A stretch of 39,056 nt of DNA from Sedimenticola sp. (GTDB taxonomy: Bacteria; Pseudomonadota; Gammaproteobacteria; Chromatiales; Chromatiaceae), in NCBI GenBank assembly GCA_011051655.1, contig DRKS01000067.1, positions 1 through 39,056 on the forward strand, written 5' to 3'. Shown here piece after piece: positions 21,110-34,280 of the stretch. The translations under genes were made by a program, and so were the position numbers. Each line of letters starts with the position of its first letter. Position 1 is the first letter of the stretch. A model generated the notes under the pieces. That model did no database searches. It was not told where the DNA came from and was given only the letters and a program-made list of their open reading frames with translations.

Positions 21110-22168
21110 CTAAGCCGCGCAGATGCCATATCTGGGCAGGACATCGTGCAGCATGACGAAACGATGGGCCTGCACGGCATCGTGGAACAGCTTCCAGTCG
21201 CTGTTGAGAAAATCCTTTTTGTACGTCTGCACCCGCATGTCATAGCTGATGCCCAGGGCCTTGGCCTTCCAGGAATGCTTGCCGCGGGCGGCATAGCTGA
21301 TGCGCTCCCGGCCGAAGCTGAATTCGCCGTCGGCTATGGCCTTCAGCCAGTCCTGGTGGCGTTTCTCGCCGTCTTTCTCCTTGAATTGCAGAAACAGGCT
21401 GCGGATGCGGCTCTTGTCTTCCCGTTCGAGACCCTTTACCCGCGCCTTGGGATCGCCCAGGCGGTAACGCTTCATGGCGATACAGAGCTTGTCCGCCGCG
21501 GTGACGAAGTCCCTGGTGTTGTTGCGCTCGATCTTGTGGCCGCTGCCGTTTCTGTATTGCCAGGTGAGAAAGGGCATGTCGGGGAAGACATTGGCGCGGC
21601 CGTGGCCCAGGGGGGGGATGGCGTCATCGAGGATGTCCCGCAGCCAGTCCCCCAGGATGGAGCCGAAGACGCCGGAATTGGAGGTCTCCTCGGCGTGCTC
21701 CACTTCGTTGATCTTGTGCAGCACCCCGGCGAAGCCCTGGTGGGCCCAGGTGTCGGCGTAGACGTGCATGGTCACCCCCAGGCGGTGCAGGGCGTAGGGG
21801 CGGTCCTGCTGCTCGATGGCCAGGGCCACCATGTCCCGGGCCACCGGGCTGTCGGGGGCGCAGACGATCTTCTTGATGAAGCTGCCCCGGATGTCGGCGC
21901 CGGCCGGCTGCTGATCGTTGCCGGGGAGAAAATGGAACGGCAGCCAGACCTGGTGATTGGCCAGTTCCTCCGCATTGCGCGGATCCAGCATCTTGTGGGC
22001 GGAGCTGATGCGATGGTAGAGGGCCTTGTTGTCGAAATAGACCGTGCCGGCGCTGGTGGCGTCATCCACGTACTGGGCGGCGTAGGCGATGGTCTCCGCC
22101 TCGGGCTGCTCGAATCCGGCCAGGCGCGCGACCACATAGGTGACTCCATGGTGAAAATCGATTTGCAT
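21110..22168 (-). CDS. DUF6765-like histidine-rich protein in the glycyl radical operon
   Basis: A 352-residue soluble protein resembling DUF6765, as far as I recall that family. It begins MQIDFHHGVTYVVARLAGF and has SSAHKML and LHRLGVTMHVYADTWAHQGF. The HxxxxxxHxxxDxxxH spacing resembles zinc-dependent phospholipase C/P1 nuclease metal sites, so a metal-dependent hydrolase fold is possible; that is a guess. No signal peptide. The ATG at 22168 has a near-perfect GGAGGG ribosome site; the frame runs further upstream only into the activase gene. It is last in the operon, 14 bases after the glycyl radical activase. A tie to the radical enzyme is suggested only by position. Confidence 0.7.
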   Translation of the reverse strand: MQIDFHHGVTYVVARLAGFEQPEAETIAYAAQYVDDATSAGTVYFDNKALYHRISSAHKMLDPRNAEELANHQVWLPFHFLPGNDQQPAGADIRGSFIKKIVCAPDSPVARDMVALAIEQQDRPYALHRLGVTMHVYADTWAHQGFAGVLHKINEVEHAEETSNSGVFGSILGDWLRDILDDAIPPLGHGRANVFPDMPFLTWQYRNGSGHKIERNNTRDFVTAADKLCIAMKRYRLGDPKARVKGLEREDKSRIRSLFLQFKEKDGEKRHQDWLKAIADGEFSFGRERISYAARGKHSWKAKALGISYDMRVQTYKKDFLNSDWKLFHDAVQAHRFVMLHDVLPRYGICAA

Positions 22169-22182
22169 GTTCTTTCCCTCCG

Positions 22183-22932
22183 TTATCGGGCTTCGTTGAA
22201 ATAGCTGATGCTGAGTTCCTGCTCCCCCCTGGGCATGTAGGTGCTGTAGTCGTACCTGGCGCGGATCCCCAGCCGCTTCAGCTTGTCCCGCCACAGGGGG
22301 TTGTAGGGGATCAGGGTGCAGGCGTCGACATTGCGCTCCCGGAGAAAACGGGCCAGGCCGGAAAGGTTCTCCCGGGTGGCCGTGATCCCGGGGATCAGGG
22401 GAATGCGGGGGATCACCGGAATTTCGGCCTCCCGGAGCAGGCGGGAAAAGTTTTCCAGCACCGGGGCGCTGGGGCAGCCCGCATATCTCCGGCTCGCCCC
22501 GTCATCGATGAGCTTGAGGTCGAAATAGATCAGGTCCAGCCAGGGCAGCAGCTTCCGCCGGAAGCCGTCGTAGTGGAACAGGCCGCAGGTCTCCATGGCC
22601 GTGTGGATGCCCTCCTCCTTCAGCATCTTCAGGAAATGCTGGTTGAAGTCCATCTGCGCCGTGGGCTCGCCGCCGGAAAGGGTGACGCCGCCGCCGCTGG
22701 AATCGTAGAAGGGCCTGTCCTGGCGCACCCGGTACAGCAGCTCCTCCAGGCCGATCCAGAAGCCTACCGGGTCCCCGTTGATATCGGTCCCGGGCTCCCT
22801 GGCGATGCCCTCGGGGTTCTGGCACCAGACGCAGGCCAGCGGGCAGCCCTTGAAGAAGACCGTGGTGCGGATACCGGGGCCGTCCTCGCTGCTGCCCCGC
22901 TTGATGTCGAAGATGAGGGCCCGCTGTCCCAC
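22183..22932 (-). CDS. Radical SAM glycyl radical enzyme-activating protein, short PflA-like form
   Basis: A 249-residue radical SAM enzyme that would abstract hydrogen from the glycine of its partner using SAM. The [4Fe-4S] motif CxxxCxxC is at Cys30, Cys34 and Cys37 (GCPLACVWCQNPEG), preceded by DGPGIRTTVFFKG. The SAM-binding GGEP lies in GGGVTLSGGEPTAQ, and later elements METCG and DLIYFDLKLID match activases. Between the cluster motif and GGEP there are no cysteines, so the eight-Cys ferredoxin insert found in activases of dehydratase- and decarboxylase-type enzymes is missing. In this it resembles PflA. The start is GTG, one base after the stop of the SCP2-like gene. Confidence 0.92.
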   Translation of the reverse strand: MGQRALIFDIKRGSSEDGPGIRTTVFFKGCPLACVWCQNPEGIAREPGTDINGDPVGFWIGLEELLYRVRQDRPFYDSSGGGVTLSGGEPTAQMDFNQHFLKMLKEEGIHTAMETCGLFHYDGFRRKLLPWLDLIYFDLKLIDDGASRRYAGCPSAPVLENFSRLLREAEIPVIPRIPLIPGITATRENLSGLARFLRERNVDACTLIPYNPLWRDKLKRLGIRARYDYSTYMPRGEQELSISYFNEAR

Positions 22933-22933
22933 G

Positions 22934-23566
22934 TCACTCCGGCCCGGCGAGGGCCGCCTGGGCGTTGGCGCCGATGGCTCCGAACTTGAACATGTGGCCG
23001 AAATTGCCGCTCATCTGCACCAGGTTCTCCAGCAGCAACTGGACCACATCGGCGTCCGGGCGCTCCAGCAGGCCCAGGATGGACCGGACGTCCTTGAACC
23101 GGATGACCAGGTCCACCTGGTCCGGGTCCCGTTCGATCCGGTCCGCCTGCTCCTCGCTCAGCGCCTCGGTGGCAACGATGGCGCCGGGGTTGAGGCGTTG
23201 TCCCAGGGGCGTCTGCACGAACAGGGCGTCGGGATCGGGACAGAACCGGATCCAGACATTCATGTCGTCCCCGGGCTTGCGGGTGCGGATCAGGAACTTC
23301 CCCTGGTAGTAGCGCACGCCCCCCTCCGCATTGGGGTCGCGCATGACGAAGTTGTCCTCGAAAAAGGCCTGGGCCCTGTTTGACTGGGCCTCGCTCAACC
23401 CCTCGCAGACGAGAAAGCCGAAGCCGAGCCGGATCAGTTTGGCCATGGTCTCGGCCAGCAGCCGGCCCCCGGCCCGGTCCAGCAGCCCCTTCAGCTCGTC
23501 GCTTTCGAAGCCGGCCCGCAGCAGATGATGAATGCCCCGGGGCAGGGATGGAATGGTTGCGTGCAT
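22934..23566 (-). CDS. SCP2-like protein between glycyl radical enzyme and activase
   Basis: A 210-residue soluble protein. The C-terminal part (about 150-200: VDLVIRFKDVRSILGLLER, then NLVQMSGNFGHMFKFGA) resembles the end of SCP2 sterol-carrier-like domains, which bind hydrophobic ligands or cofactors. The N-terminal half (IHHLLRAGFESDELKGLL) is helical and not recognised. Its placement in a four-gene operon (two bases after the enzyme gene, one base before the activase) suggests a subunit, substrate carrier or chaperone of the radical enzyme. The SCP2 match is by eye and needs a profile search; treat function as unknown. Confidence 0.65.
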   Translation of the reverse strand: MHATIPSLPRGIHHLLRAGFESDELKGLLDRAGGRLLAETMAKLIRLGFGFLVCEGLSEAQSNRAQAFFEDNFVMRDPNAEGGVRYYQGKFLIRTRKPGDDMNVWIRFCPDPDALFVQTPLGQRLNPGAIVATEALSEEQADRIERDPDQVDLVIRFKDVRSILGLLERPDADVVQLLLENLVQMSGNFGHMFKFGAIGANAQAALAGPE

Positions 23567-23568
23567 GA

Positions 23569-26562
23569 TTATTGCCCCCTGTGCTGCTCGACGCCGCTGG
23601 CCATGTCGAAATTGGCCCGGTCGATGATTTCCTGGCGCATCTGCGGGCTCAGGGTGACGAAGTAGGCGGAGTAGCCCGCCACCCTGATCATCAGGTCCTT
23701 GTAGGGCGCCAGCGCCGCCTGCTCCGCCTTGCCGGCGCCGGGCCGGGCGGCCGCGTTGGCGGCCTCGTTGGCCGCCTTGAAGTCCTCGATGGAGGTGACG
23801 CAGAGCTGGACCAGCACCCCGTCCTGGTCCAGGAAGGTCTTCATGTGCCGGGCGAACAGTTCGGTGTCCTCGTCGAACAGCTCGTGGCCGCGCGGGGTCA
23901 GGCTCAGGTTATAGGTGTAGCCGTTCTGCACCGTGTCGGCGTCCACCCTGGCCACCGAAAGCATGTGATCCAGCAGCATCACGGGCTCGCCGTTGCGCTT
24001 GACGATGCCGGGACAGGGGGTGATGCCGCTGGCGAAGGATTCGCTGTCCCGCCGCCCGTTGGGCGTGGCCTTGGTGAGCATGCCGAAGCCGGCGTGGTTG
24101 GTCATGCTCCAGTAGCCGGTGAGATAACGCCCCCCCCGGTGGGTGCGGTATTTGTAGAATACGTCCTGGATGAGCTTGGTCAGGAGGTTGGTGTATTTGA
24201 CCGCCAGGGCATTGTTGTAGGTGCCGCCCGGGGTCTCGTCCACGCCGGCGCCGTATTTGGGGGCCAGATGTATCTCCCGGCGCAGGGCCTTCAGCCGCTC
24301 CGGCGCAATGCCGGGGACATCCTCAGGCCCGCCGCCGCCAAACAGGCTCCGGAGCCGCTCGGCGATATTGTCGAAGAAGCCGGGCCGGTCCTTCGTGGCG
24401 GCGTCGCGGCGGTCGAAGTTGGCGTCCAGGGCGGCCAGCAGCTCCTGGGCGGTGACGCGGCCGCCGAACACCAGTTCGTCGATGACGCAGAAGGAGTCGA
24501 TGACATCCGCCAGGCCGATGATGGCCACCCCGGAGGAGTTGTACTTGGCCCCGCCGGAGGCGAGGTCCCGGAACTTGGCGCCCCGCTCCCCCGGTTTGTT
24601 GGTGGGCCCGTCGAACAGGCCGGACAGCAGCGGCGAGGGCCGCACCTTCTCCAGGGTGCGCCCCAGGTAATTGTTGAACTGGACACAGTGGCGGGCCATT
24701 TCATCCAGCTGGAAGCGGAAGGCCTCGATGAACTGGTCCATGCCGTTCATCTCCGTCAGCCGTGGCGAGGTGTATTCCGGGGCGCCATGGAACAGGTTGG
24801 GATCGTCCGGTCCCACGCCGTCGCTGCGGTGCTTGCCGCCGTAGATGGCCAGCTCCAGCACGGCGGGCAGCACCAGGAGGGTGGAGCCGGTATGGCCGTA
24901 GTGCTTGTGGTCGGCGTTCTGTTCGATGCAGCCGATGGAGGCATAGTCATGGGCGTCGGCCAGGGCCTCCTCCCCGGAGATCCCCGCGTGGGCGGCGTAA
25001 TAGCGGGCCATGCTGCGGATCACCGGGGCGTCGCCGTGCAGGGCCGGCGTGGCCCTGGTGTTGAGGTTGACCTGGCAGATGCGCCGCAGATAGGGGTCGA
25101 TCCCGCCGGGGGCGAGGGGGGACCCATCCGGGGCGCGGTGATGCACCTCCTTGTGGTAGCGGGCGTGGATATTGGGATCGCGGATGGCCAGCAGTTCCGT
25201 GGCCTTGAGGATGATGTAGGTCATGTCGTTGACCGCATCCACCGTCTGGCCGTTCTCGTAGCGGACCCCGCCCACCGTCAGGGCCTGGTTAGAGCCGCTG
25301 CCGGCGAACAGCACCTCGGCGCTCTCGGGCGACAGGGGCACATGGTCGGAACAGCGCAGGAAGAAATGGCACATCAGCTCCACCGCGCGGCGGGTATAGG
25401 CGGCCCTGGCTTCGTCATCGGGCTGCTTTTCCCAGTCACGCAGGTAAAAGGGATTGAGGGTCTGGTCCAGGCGTCCGAGGGAGAGCCCGAAGTTGGTGTT
25501 CTCCTGCAACAGCAGGTGGTAGCAGATCCAGACGCTGGTGAGGGCCTCGGCCAGGGTGTCGGCGGGCCCGGCGGGGACCTTGCGGCAGATGGCGGCCAGC
25601 CCGGCGTTGCCCGCCTCTTCCGCCGCCCCGGCCAGGCGGGCGGCATAGGCCTTGGCCCCTTCGTAGACGGCGATCACCCCCTCCAGGAATCCGACCTGCT
25701 CCGGGGTGGCGGCCACCCCTTCGTCGATGTCCTTGCGCAGTTGGCCGATCAGGCCGTCGAGGCCGTATTCCAGCACCCGGCCGAAGTCCGGCGTGGTGTG
25801 GGAAACGGCGGTGGCCTTGTCGCTGAGATAGAAGGCCACCCGCTCGAACAGCTCCTGGCACTTGGGGGTCTCCCCCGCCTTTTTGGCGAGAGGGGGATCG
25901 ATGCCCGGCTCGTCCCCCACGGTGTCCCGGCCGTCATCCGCATAGTCCGCGGTATCGTAGTCGCTGTAGCGGGCCGCCTCCTGCACCGGACGGCGCTCCA
26001 GCCAGTAGGGAAAGATCTCCTCGTTCAGCCGCCTGGCCACCTCCGGGCGGATCCTGAAGGGATTCTGGGGCCTGTCGGCGATGGTCTTCAGCTCCGGCCA
26101 GATGCAGTAGCCGCTCATGTCCATGTACACCACCGGACCGACGAAGCTGGTGGTGGTCTGGCCCGGCAGCAGATCCGTCTCCCTCACCAGGGGGGTCTTG
26201 TTGCGGAATACGTATTCCAGGGCCCTGGCGCGCCTGGTATAAGGCGGCAGCGCCCGGGACTCGGGACGGCGCAGGAATTCGGTGAGCAGGCGGGGCAGCT
26301 CGTCGCAGATCTCCGGGATCCCCTCCGGGCCGAACAGCTTGCTGCGCCAGGCCTGCACGACGGGAAACTGTTCGAGCCGTATGTCCGTCAGGGCCAGATC
26401 GGAAAGGGTCTTGATTTTTTCGAAATCATTGTTGGGTATGGCGCCGCTTTCCCCCGGCGATGCGGCATCATCCGCGGAGGCGCCGATCCCGACCCTGATG
26501 CCTCCGCCATACAGGTCTCGATTTGTGCCGTTGCCCGCGGATGTGGAAGTGGACTGGCTCAT
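23569..26562 (-). CDS. Glycyl radical enzyme of unassigned substrate
   Basis: A 997-residue member of the pyruvate formate-lyase / PFL2 superfamily. The glycyl radical loop is RVAGYSAYF with Gly963. The catalytic thiyl Cys545 lies in ASIGCIEQNADHKHYG; the Cys-x-Glu form is that of eliminase/decarboxylase-type members, not of PFL itself, which has two adjacent Cys. Other family marks are GGAKYNSSGVAIIGLADVIDS, ATPNGRRDSESF and LTSVWICYHLLLQENTNFGLS. It is longer than the usual 780-850 residues: an extra low-complexity N-terminus (1-45), an Asp/Tyr-rich insert (about 200-230) and another near 715-750. The residues after CIE (QNADHKHYGHTG) do not match the choline, glycerol or isethionate lyases I can recall. 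It is first in an operon with an SCP2-like protein, activase and DUF6765-like protein. The radical is oxygen-sensitive, so anaerobic use is expected. Confidence 0.93.
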   Translation of the reverse strand: MSQSTSTSAGNGTNRDLYGGGIRVGIGASADDAASPGESGAIPNNDFEKIKTLSDLALTDIRLEQFPVVQAWRSKLFGPEGIPEICDELPRLLTEFLRRPESRALPPYTRRARALEYVFRNKTPLVRETDLLPGQTTTSFVGPVVYMDMSGYCIWPELKTIADRPQNPFRIRPEVARRLNEEIFPYWLERRPVQEAARYSDYDTADYADDGRDTVGDEPGIDPPLAKKAGETPKCQELFERVAFYLSDKATAVSHTTPDFGRVLEYGLDGLIGQLRKDIDEGVAATPEQVGFLEGVIAVYEGAKAYAARLAGAAEEAGNAGLAAICRKVPAGPADTLAEALTSVWICYHLLLQENTNFGLSLGRLDQTLNPFYLRDWEKQPDDEARAAYTRRAVELMCHFFLRCSDHVPLSPESAEVLFAGSGSNQALTVGGVRYENGQTVDAVNDMTYIILKATELLAIRDPNIHARYHKEVHHRAPDGSPLAPGGIDPYLRRICQVNLNTRATPALHGDAPVIRSMARYYAAHAGISGEEALADAHDYASIGCIEQNADHKHYGHTGSTLLVLPAVLELAIYGGKHRSDGVGPDDPNLFHGAPEYTSPRLTEMNGMDQFIEAFRFQLDEMARHCVQFNNYLGRTLEKVRPSPLLSGLFDGPTNKPGERGAKFRDLASGGAKYNSSGVAIIGLADVIDSFCVIDELVFGGRVTAQELLAALDANFDRRDAATKDRPGFFDNIAERLRSLFGGGGPEDVPGIAPERLKALRREIHLAPKYGAGVDETPGGTYNNALAVKYTNLLTKLIQDVFYKYRTHRGGRYLTGYWSMTNHAGFGMLTKATPNGRRDSESFASGITPCPGIVKRNGEPVMLLDHMLSVARVDADTVQNGYTYNLSLTPRGHELFDEDTELFARHMKTFLDQDGVLVQLCVTSIEDFKAANEAANAAARPGAGKAEQAALAPYKDLMIRVAGYSAYFVTLSPQMRQEIIDRANFDMASGVEQHRGQ

Positions 26563-26606
26563 AATGGCTCTCCCCCCGGGAAGTAGATTCCTTCGACCAA
26601 GTGCTA

Positions 26607-26635
26607 AGACTATGCCAGCTTGGGCCTCGTTGCAA
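26607..26635 (-). promoter_or_regulatory. Possible promoter of the glycyl radical operon
   Basis: On the minus strand, TTGCAA (26635-26630) is 17 bases from TAGTCT (26612-26607), the same -10 hexamer as the metZ promoter. The glycyl radical gene starts about 45 bases downstream with a strong GGGGGGAG ribosome site. No FNR-type site (TTGAT-N4-ATCAA) is recognisable nearby. Confidence 0.4.
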
Positions 26636-26644
26636 TGAGGGGAC

Positions 26645-33774: not shown

Positions 33775-34206
33775 TCAGCCCGCCCCCTTGAGGCGGTTTT
33801 CATATTCCGCGATATAGGGGGCGTATTTCTTGTCTTCCACCCGGATGTGCTCCAGGAGCCAATCCTTGATGATCTTTATGAGCTCCGTCCCCAGGATAAT
33901 CTCGCCATCATTCAGATCCCTGTTGTACCGGTAGATCAGGGCGTCGAAATCCTTGTGCATGCGCATGTGCCTCACCAGGTCCGGGTAGCCGATCTTGCGC
34001 ATCAACGCTTCTTCGCACTCGAAATGATACCGGGCGTAATCCTGCATCGCCCGCAGGGACTCCCGGATGATTGCCTGTAAATCATTTTCATTGCCTTTGA
34101 TCAGGCCTGCATGCATTTTGTTGAATATCCCGATCCATTCCTTATGCTGGCCGTCAATTTCCGCGTTGTTCACGCTGAATGACGGATCCCACTCCATCCG
34201 CAACAT
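33775..34206 (-). CDS. Bacteriohemerythrin
   Basis: A 143-residue stand-alone hemerythrin, a four-helix bundle that binds O2 at a di-iron site. All ligands are visible: His21 (DGQHKEW), His61 and Glu65 (HFECEE), His80 and His84 (HMRMH), and His120 and Asp125 (HIRVED). The ATG at 34206 has GAGGGAGAGG just upstream; the frame runs back to 34266 through a hairpin, but the conserved N-terminus (WDPSFSVNNAEIDGQH) begins here. It lies 75 bases after the 809-residue gene on the same strand, separated by a strong hairpin. The role is oxygen storage or sensing, plausible in a microaerophilic organism. Confidence 0.95.
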   Translation of the reverse strand: MLRMEWDPSFSVNNAEIDGQHKEWIGIFNKMHAGLIKGNENDLQAIIRESLRAMQDYARYHFECEEALMRKIGYPDLVRHMRMHKDFDALIYRYNRDLNDGEIILGTELIKIIKDWLLEHIRVEDKKYAPYIAEYENRLKGAG

Positions 34207-34253
34207 AGCATCCTCTCCCTCTGATTTTCCAAAACAACATCCCCGAAGCCGCC

Positions 34254-34280
34254 GGAGCGCGGGCAAGACGCCCGCGCTCC
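34254..34280. repeat. Strong GC-rich inverted repeat between two minus-strand genes
   Basis: GGAGCGCGGG-caagacg-CCCGCGCTCC is a perfect ten-pair stem with a seven-base loop. It starts immediately after the stop of the 809-residue gene. It has the look of a dispersed REP-like hairpin and may stop or stabilise transcripts; no U-run follows directly on the minus strand. Confidence 0.75.

Follow-up and report, generated by a model that had tools for sequence, protein, structure and literature searches.

A separate clade of glycyl radical enzymes and its recurring partner genes in Sedimenticola sp. and Nitrosomonas

The contig DRKS01000067.1 of Sedimenticola sp. (assembly GCA_011051655.1), whose 39,056 nucleotides are called the window here, encodes a glycyl radical enzyme (GRE) that forms its own clade and recurs together with a radical S-adenosylmethionine (SAM) activase, a small protein termed S210 and a large protein termed c7 (Table 1). 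Our preferred reading, to which we give somewhat less than even confidence, is that these four genes, with a DUF6765 protein as a common accessory, constitute a dedicated GRE system of the eliminase type, which would act at low oxygen on an uncharged, rather hydrophobic substrate and in which S210 and c7 are possible carriers. The reactions of GREs are among the most difficult in anaerobic metabolism, and every branch assigned so far has given access to a new pathway. Nitrosomonas species are known as aerobic lithotrophs, and the finding thus places a distinct GRE branch in such organisms, with partners that are apparently undescribed for GREs in the titles and abstract beginnings covered by our literature search. 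In these same parts of the literature, neither a paper on a GRE in Nitrosomonas or ammonia oxidisers nor anything resembling the GRE-S210-c7-DUF6765 system was apparent, also when GREs with sterol carrier proteins, or DUF6765, were looked for. The GRE tree in PMC11528403 might include the branch without a label.

A preliminary description of the window had proposed a four-gene operon. The four minus-strand open reading frames for the GRE, S210, the activase and the DUF6765 protein are indeed present at the coordinates that it gave. However, the conserved unit comprises the GRE, S210, the activase and c7, and DUF6765 is frequent but dispensable. The fifth member, c7, had been overlooked; it lies 7.7 kb upstream of the window GRE on the same strand, with other genes between. 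The reported gaps of 1-14 bases are correct for GRE-S210 (2 bp) and S210-activase (1 bp), but the DUF6765 reading frame as listed starts with GTG at 22294, inside the activase, and overlaps it. The DUF6765 homologues align from about the ATG at 22171, which leaves an 11-bp gap to the activase.

The GRE is a member of the superfamily according to PF02901 (327.6 bits, cut-off 24.3) and PF01228 (25.5 bits, cut-off 22.2), and it is the single gene similar to pyruvate formate-lyase (PFL) in a search of its own genome. Its relatives are 66-81% identical to it and all other matches found reach at most 32%. In a tree of 33 rows, 12 rows of this GRE family are found on one side of a branch with a support of 100 (Shimodaira-Hasegawa-like approximate likelihood ratio test) and a stem of 1.79 changes per column, which sets them off from CutC, HypD, YbiW, PflD and PflB. 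The tree was made from 12 of the 23 long family rows and 21 of the 22 references, one half-gene being left out; of the three long DyP-type proteins only the C-terminal part was used, and the G047 sequence was shortened by 100 residues. No decarboxylase or X-succinate synthase was knowingly included, and these enzymes were compared by NCBIfam and PDB sequence scores instead. The best NCBIfam match is TIGR01774, the PFL2/glycerol dehydratase subfamily (328.4 bits, below the cut-off of 678.2). All equivalog scores are far below their cut-offs (CutC 205.5/1050, HypD 148.7/1100, indoleacetate decarboxylase 130.5/1100, hydroxyphenylacetate decarboxylase 63.8/1150 and PFL 29.9/994.2). The nearest solved structure by sequence is the A. 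fulgidus PFL2 (2f3o, 188.9 bits). Moreover, the GRE part of a joint GRE-S210 model matched GRE structures with best Z scores of 22-24, the model itself being poor (mean predicted local distance difference test, pLDDT, of 48.7). By tree and by equivalog scores, the enzyme thus falls outside every characterised GRE group with which it was compared. For a Moraxella plasmid GRE, a joint sister position was obtained (support 90), which carried a long-branch warning and was not used.

The GRE family is found in 3 of 369 genomes of the class and in 6 of 210 genomes of the taxonomic family, the window's own included in both counts, as well as in 4 of 300 genomes of the order of genome G530; distant GREs occur in three more genomes of the class and three more of that order. 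In the Nitrosomonas genus, 17 of 85 genomes are carriers. S210 is present in 3 of the 369 class genomes, exactly the three holding the GRE family. The neighbourhoods were compared in 28 loci from 27 genomes, one of which contributed two loci. S210, the activase, DUF6765 and c7 (about 820 residues) recur beside the GRE and any other gene is found in six loci at most. Co-occurrence with the GRE, which the preliminary description had suggested checking for the SCP2-like and DUF6765-like genes, is strict for S210 and looser for DUF6765; that of c7 is near-strict. The gene for c7 lies directly 5' of the GRE gene in 18 loci (15 from the Nitrosomonas genus and L013, L014 and L030), downstream of it in L015, L016 and L038, and on another contig in G261. 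Among the 85 Nitrosomonas-genus genomes, 20 have a c7 match, of which 16 are long and all 16 in GRE carriers; the Fisher p values of 2e-16 (long copies) and 1e-12 (all 20 matches, 16 in carriers) come from related species and are not true probabilities. Two of the 16 long copies have an internal stop (G530 and G899) and one is in two contig pieces. The four matches outside the carriers are not counted as long: in G935, G875 and G896 the gene is short or broken, and that of G900, which may be long, is cut by the contig end. What G896 retains is the beginning of c7 and the end of DUF6765, a pattern that a deletion of the part between would leave. Across the class, c7 occurs in 4 of 369 genomes, namely the three GRE-family genomes and G440. 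It could also be that the GRE, the activase and S210 alone form the system, with c7 and DUF6765 riding along as passengers in one mobile or clustered region. The distance of 7.7 kb and the intervening genes in the window would fit, as would DUF6765, which is absent from 5 of the 17 Nitrosomonas carriers and present on three plasmids without an annotated GRE nearby. However, c7 also co-occurs where it is not adjacent, as in G261, L015, L016, L038 and the window, and we regard the passenger explanation as distinctly unlikely.

The active site was compared in an alignment of 23 GRE-family rows with 11 references, to which the family is about 25% identical. Cys545, Glu547 and His255 are invariant in all 23 rows and Gly963 is found in 22, the remaining row being gapped there. 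The residue numbers given in the preliminary description were right: Cys545, Glu547 and Gly963 align with C489, E491 and G821 of CutC, whose numbering was fixed by a 4-residue offset. The CxE motif of GRE eliminases, formed by Cys545 and Glu547, is therefore present in every family row of the alignment. PFL carries an adjacent Cys pair, whereas Cys545 is flanked by Gly and Ile. Furthermore, His255 occupies the position of HypD His160 and, in an alignment to PDB sequences, that of glycerol dehydratase H164, so that the His160-Glu436 pair of HypD is matched by His255 and Glu547. According to PMC7077986, both HypD residues are essential and His160 has been proposed to tune Glu436.

The residues contacting the substrate differ from those of the characterised enzymes. 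The CutC choline contacts D216, F395 and Y506 correspond to His255, Asn425 and Leu562, and D278, S334, F340 and Y450 of HypD to Phe358, Phe419, Asn425 and Leu562. Phe358 and Phe419, which are aligned to T334 and F389 of CutC, are like Asn425 and Leu562 found in all 23 rows; the correspondence of HypD S334 and CutC F389 is in line with PMC8473560. Trp818, also present in 23 of 23 rows, has no Trp counterpart in the 11 references. CutC T502 has an equivalent in Thr558 (Thr in 20 rows and Ser in three). Glycerol dehydratase H281, S282 and D447 are Phe358, Gly359 and Gly559 in a hand-counted alignment. At the positions by which CutC, HypD and glycerol dehydratase contact their substrates, the family thus carries other residues, most of them neutral or hydrophobic, and apart from His255 the sequence alignment revealed no residue at these positions apt to hold a charged group. 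Since the pocket would be devoid of the charged and polar groups binding choline, hydroxyproline or glycerol, an uncharged and fairly hydrophobic substrate is most likely. The separate clade and the replaced contacts make a new activity, as had been suggested, plausible.

An ordinary catabolic eliminase that has diverged and that acts on a small polar substrate such as a diol, an amino alcohol, a sulfonate or a hydroxyproline-like compound, with S210 and c7 being unrelated neighbours or assembly helpers, appears rather unlikely to us. The best sequence and fold matches of the GRE are indeed propanediol and glycerol dehydratase, CutC and the A. fulgidus PFL2, and the PFL2/glycerol dehydratase-type eliminases have the fold, the CxE motif, the glycyl radical loop and the catalytic-site His in common with it. 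Thr558 and His255, with their counterparts in CutC, HypD and glycerol dehydratase, also fit such a substrate. However, besides the low identity, the window enzyme is about 200 residues longer and has dedicated partners in S210 and c7, whose co-occurrence with the GRE is strict and near-strict, respectively. The low equivalog scores and the replaced contact positions argue against this explanation as well. In addition, genes for pathway enzymes, transporters or shell proteins recur, if at all, only within groups of closely related loci (6 of 28 or fewer; the neighbour clusters c43 and c67, with three loci each, lie outside the scan), and no microcompartment gene, in contrast to the CutC system, was found among the scanned neighbours of the GRE family.

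The CxE motif also occurs in decarboxylases, and an aryl group would be well accommodated by a hydrophobic pocket. A decarboxylase for an aryl or alkyl acid, resembling those for hydroxyphenylacetate, indoleacetate or phenylacetate, is further suggested by a fold match to hydroxyphenylacetate decarboxylase (2yaj, Z 22.2). We consider it quite improbable, since the models for hydroxyphenylacetate decarboxylase (63.8 bits) and indoleacetate decarboxylase (130.5 bits) score lower than those for CutC (205.5) and PFL2/glycerol dehydratase (328.4), and S210, the sole small protein beside the GRE, matches no small-subunit family. The hydrophobic replacements and possible ligand-carrying partners might point to lipids or hydrocarbons undergoing radical C-C bond formation or another reaction that is no elimination, S210 replacing the small subunits of X-succinate synthases; in the fold comparison, benzylsuccinate synthase reached Z 22.1 and (1-methylalkyl)succinate synthase Z 21.0, which goes in that direction. 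However, the family has kept the CxE motif, which is not known from X-succinate synthases, and the sequence scores are only 41.3 bits for benzylsuccinate synthase 4pkc and 59.4 bits for MasD, which makes such chemistry highly improbable.

S210 has no Pfam or NCBIfam match. It had been called SCP2-like, a label that could not be confirmed, as none of 13 S210 members matched the Pfam SCP2 family and hhalign comparisons with UbiT and UbiJ of E. coli were negative. The outline of S210 in the joint model (helix-strand-strand-strand-strand-helix-strand-helix-helix) has the order of helices and strands of the SCP2 topology, and this is the only such fit. Foldseek and the second-look aligner barely probed SCP2 with this model, the best 50 rows of each list being GREs followed by other large proteins. 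For c7, neither a Pfam match nor a sequence match to a calycin-type barrel was found. The protein contains an internal repeat, which tblastn cross-hits place near residues 208-281 and 698-793, and its model (mean pLDDT 46.3) is better near residues 131-170 and 211-280. The best fold match obtained with the second-look aligner is 4mve_A (Tcur_1030), probably a GXWXG-type protein (Z 8.9 over 140 of 148 residues). With this aligner, best Z scores of 7-8 are typical for models without a true match. Annelid haemoglobin chains hold ranks 2-4 (Z 7.4-7.6), and NanoLuc, a designed beta barrel and numerous proteins that bind fatty acids or retinol follow at Z of about 4-6. Foldseek yielded no match under an E value of 0.48. 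Calycin-type beta barrels in c7 are thus a tentative lead suggested by the model. If S210 and a double-barrel c7 were carriers, the GRE might act on a lipid or another hydrophobic molecule received from them and serve an oxygen-independent lipid- or membrane-modifying step in ammonia oxidisers and other gammaproteobacteria when oxygen runs out, an idea that we regard as rather unlikely. A relationship of c7 to DyP-type peroxidases was tried by hhalign against one sequence and rejected, as were a defence link (c7, S210, DUF6765, the GRE and a short c7 homologue all lack a PADLOC match at E 0.1) and a phage link (no PHROGs match for c7, S210, DUF6765 and the short homologue). Short c7 homologues of 345-374 aa are encoded in Nitrosomonas-genus genomes without the GRE (L102:5810-6931 and L103:7779-8813); they adjoin an epimerase-type gene, which in L102 is fused to a VKOR domain.

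The activase was identified by TIGR02494 (213.6 bits, cut-off 174.35) and has the radical SAM CxxxCxxC motif in common with other GRE activating enzymes, including that of PFL. A ferredoxin-like, Cys-rich insert is absent from the window and Nitrosomonas activases and present in L012, L015, L018, L029, L030 and L038: the segment from GIRTT to LSGGE has 65 residues with three Cys in the window enzyme and 114-115 residues with 11-12 Cys in L012, L015, L018 and L030. The activases of L065 and L066 (260 and 265 aa), which lack the measuring motif, were scored as insert-free by their length and a nearly gap-free alignment. When mapped on the GRE tree, 17 of the 23 rows are without the insert, five have it and one was unscored. 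A branch with a support of 100 separates these 17 rows from the others, and a single change suffices. Because the insert is present in many GRE activases, the change is read as a loss; the midpoint root does not prove this direction. The lack of a ferredoxin-like cluster domain is shared with the PFL activating enzyme and the GRM5 activases (PMC6325248), whereas other activases of the window enzyme's own family have it. As the function of this domain has been described as largely unknown (PMC10239695), a single activase change inside one GRE family offers a natural experiment.

The DUF6765 protein was assigned by PF20551 (373.3 bits, cut-off 26.6). Its weak similarity to zinc-dependent phospholipase C (PF00882, E 0.014, 15.8 bits) is below the cut-off of 26.8, and no PDB sequence matched. 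The invariant residues comprise HH, D and an HxxxDxxxH pattern. Alignment A5 was made without L016, which has an in-frame stop. Of 24 loci with sufficient flanking sequence, 19 have the gene next to that of the activase, a count that leaves aside L013 and L064, where the contigs end, and the loci lacking the back of the GRE. DUF6765 occurs in 14 of the 85 Nitrosomonas-genus genomes, 12 of them GRE carriers, and is less strictly tied to the GRE than the other members. It is also encoded on plasmids of Aeromonas, Photobacterium and Vibrio (L118:7031-9074, L119:5063-7068 and L120:5061-7065). No GRE is annotated in these stretches, where DUF6765 comes third in a cassette with a putative lipoprotein of about 220 aa and a protein of about 90 aa, near restriction, Fic or ThiF genes. 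Kinship of S210 with these small genes was considered and dropped after no match was obtained, and neither c7 nor S210 had a match on plasmids.

Upstream of c7, an exact match to the FNR-type consensus palindrome TTGATNNNNATCAA is found in six Nitrosomonas loci with two different spacers. Of 24 upstream regions, each 350 bp long, 13 have FNR-type boxes with up to two mismatches (shuffled mean 5.7, maximum 11), a count inflated by relatedness. CRP-type boxes gave no signal, being found in 3 of the 24 regions against a shuffled mean of 3.5. The FNR-type boxes would fit an expression controlled by oxygen or nitric oxide. A scan of the GRE upstream sequences yielded no consensus promoter, and a sigma-54 promoter 5' of the GRE was discarded, as the GG-N10-GC match of the window is not kept in L008, L016 and L017. 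The 82-bp gap upstream of the GRE has an element, ATTGCAA...AAGCTGGNATA, in common with these three loci, as compared by eye.

In the favoured eliminase-type system, the activase would use SAM at low oxygen to place a radical on Gly963, from which it would move to Cys545. The Cys545 thiyl radical would then abstract a hydrogen from the substrate, and Glu547, presumably tuned by His255, would handle the hydroxyl proton as the neighbouring group leaves in a 1,2-elimination. S210 and c7, as obligate partners, may bind and deliver the substrate. The sequence data establish which genes belong together and co-occur, the catalytic residues and the separate clade of the GRE, whereas the elimination reaction, the kind of substrate, the carrier function and the expression at low oxygen are inferred from them. 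Several observations weigh against this proposal. Neither a substrate nor a product route was seen, and the CxE motif is not exclusive to eliminases. Both structure models, of GRE-S210 and of c7, are poor, so the pocket positions rest on the alignment at about 25% identity. The SCP2 likeness of S210 has no profile support and the carrier role of c7 leans on a weak fold match. Moreover, carrier G889 (66% complete; L106) has no c7, even though its contig covers more than 2 kb of sequence 5' of the GRE, the c7 of G440, which has one internal stop and ends near the contig end, comes without a GRE that could be found, and further copies appear damaged by the stops in G530 and G899 and a frame break in L015. 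Finally, the FNR-type boxes belong to related Nitrosomonas loci; the window GRE has no box with up to two mismatches within 350 bp, and the sole box 5' of the window c7 has two mismatches.

Table 1 The GRE system and adjoining features in the window
Feature	Position	Strand	Remarks
GRE, "glycyl radical enzyme", 997 aa	23569..26562	minus	PF02901 and PF01228; Cys545, Glu547, Gly963, His255
S210, 210 aa	22934..23566	minus	3' of the GRE in 26/26 loci with sequence past the GRE
Radical-SAM GRE activase, 249 aa, without ferredoxin-like cluster insert	22183..22932	minus	TIGR02494
DUF6765 protein, 353 aa, His/Asp-rich	21110..22171 (likely start ATG 22171)	minus	PF20551
c7, 809 aa	34281..36710	minus	63% identity to the gene directly 5' of the GRE in L058
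Intergenic gap GRE-dusA, 82 bp	26563..26644	minus	upstream element common to L008, L016 and L017
Bacteriohemerythrin gene	33775-34266	minus, same as c7	14 bp downstream of c7

The other genes of the window comprise metG, argD, argF, a ferredoxin-like gene (these last three named from their sequence), an SH3-domain gene, dusA, argA, argE and genes for a muramidase, a cation efflux protein and an EamA transporter, the latter two at distances of 1.5 and 11 kb. An oxygen-binding bacteriohemerythrin adjoining the c7 of an oxygen-sensitive GRE system may or may not be a matter of chance. The statement that no shell, dehydrogenase or transporter gene lies beside the GRE is true insofar as none recurs in more than 6 of the 28 neighbourhoods, but some Nitrosomonas loci have a transporter group or an oxidoreductase. 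The lesser neighbour clusters, found mostly in closely related Nitrosomonas, comprise an ABC/FtsX transporter group, a CRP-like regulator, an arginase, a lytic transglycosylase-like protein, a disulphide oxidoreductase and housekeeping genes. The transporter group lies 5' of the GRE and faces away from it, with an FtsX/MacB-type permease (cluster c28) in six loci and ABC genes (c16) in five of these. The ABC pair and the permease are located 5' of c7 in L058 (1964-5650) and also in L057, L059, L060 and L069, and could possibly be a lipid or lipoprotein exporter. A pyridine nucleotide-disulphide oxidoreductase is encoded 3' of the GRE in three Nitrosomonas loci. A GRE-S210 fusion of 1234 aa in L057 was set aside as evidence, as it results from a 1-bp insertion relative to L058. 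In G911, the GRE is split into two pieces about 236 kb apart (L068 and L069); c7 lies with the front piece, and S210, the activase and DUF6765 accompany the back piece.

The comparison also revealed other GREs. PFL-like enzymes that have the CxE motif in the form GCYEP and a loop of the glycyl type (RVR.GGW.E.) are fused to a DyP-type peroxidase domain in G777 (L101:6462-10559) and on an Asticcacaulis plasmid (L079:5613-9593); the protein of G387 (L027) has the same long architecture and probably a DyP domain too. On a Hymenobacter plasmid (L084:6668-10007), the GRE and the DyP-type peroxidase are separate neighbouring genes. No activase is annotated beside the Asticcacaulis and Hymenobacter copies and none matched among the four scanned neighbours in G777. 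It is odd to find a peroxidase linked to a radical enzyme that is sensitive to oxygen. Moraxella and Acinetobacter are usually regarded as aerobes; a GRE with an activase is encoded on a plasmid of Moraxella osloensis (L077), and an Acinetobacter towneri plasmid matched too.

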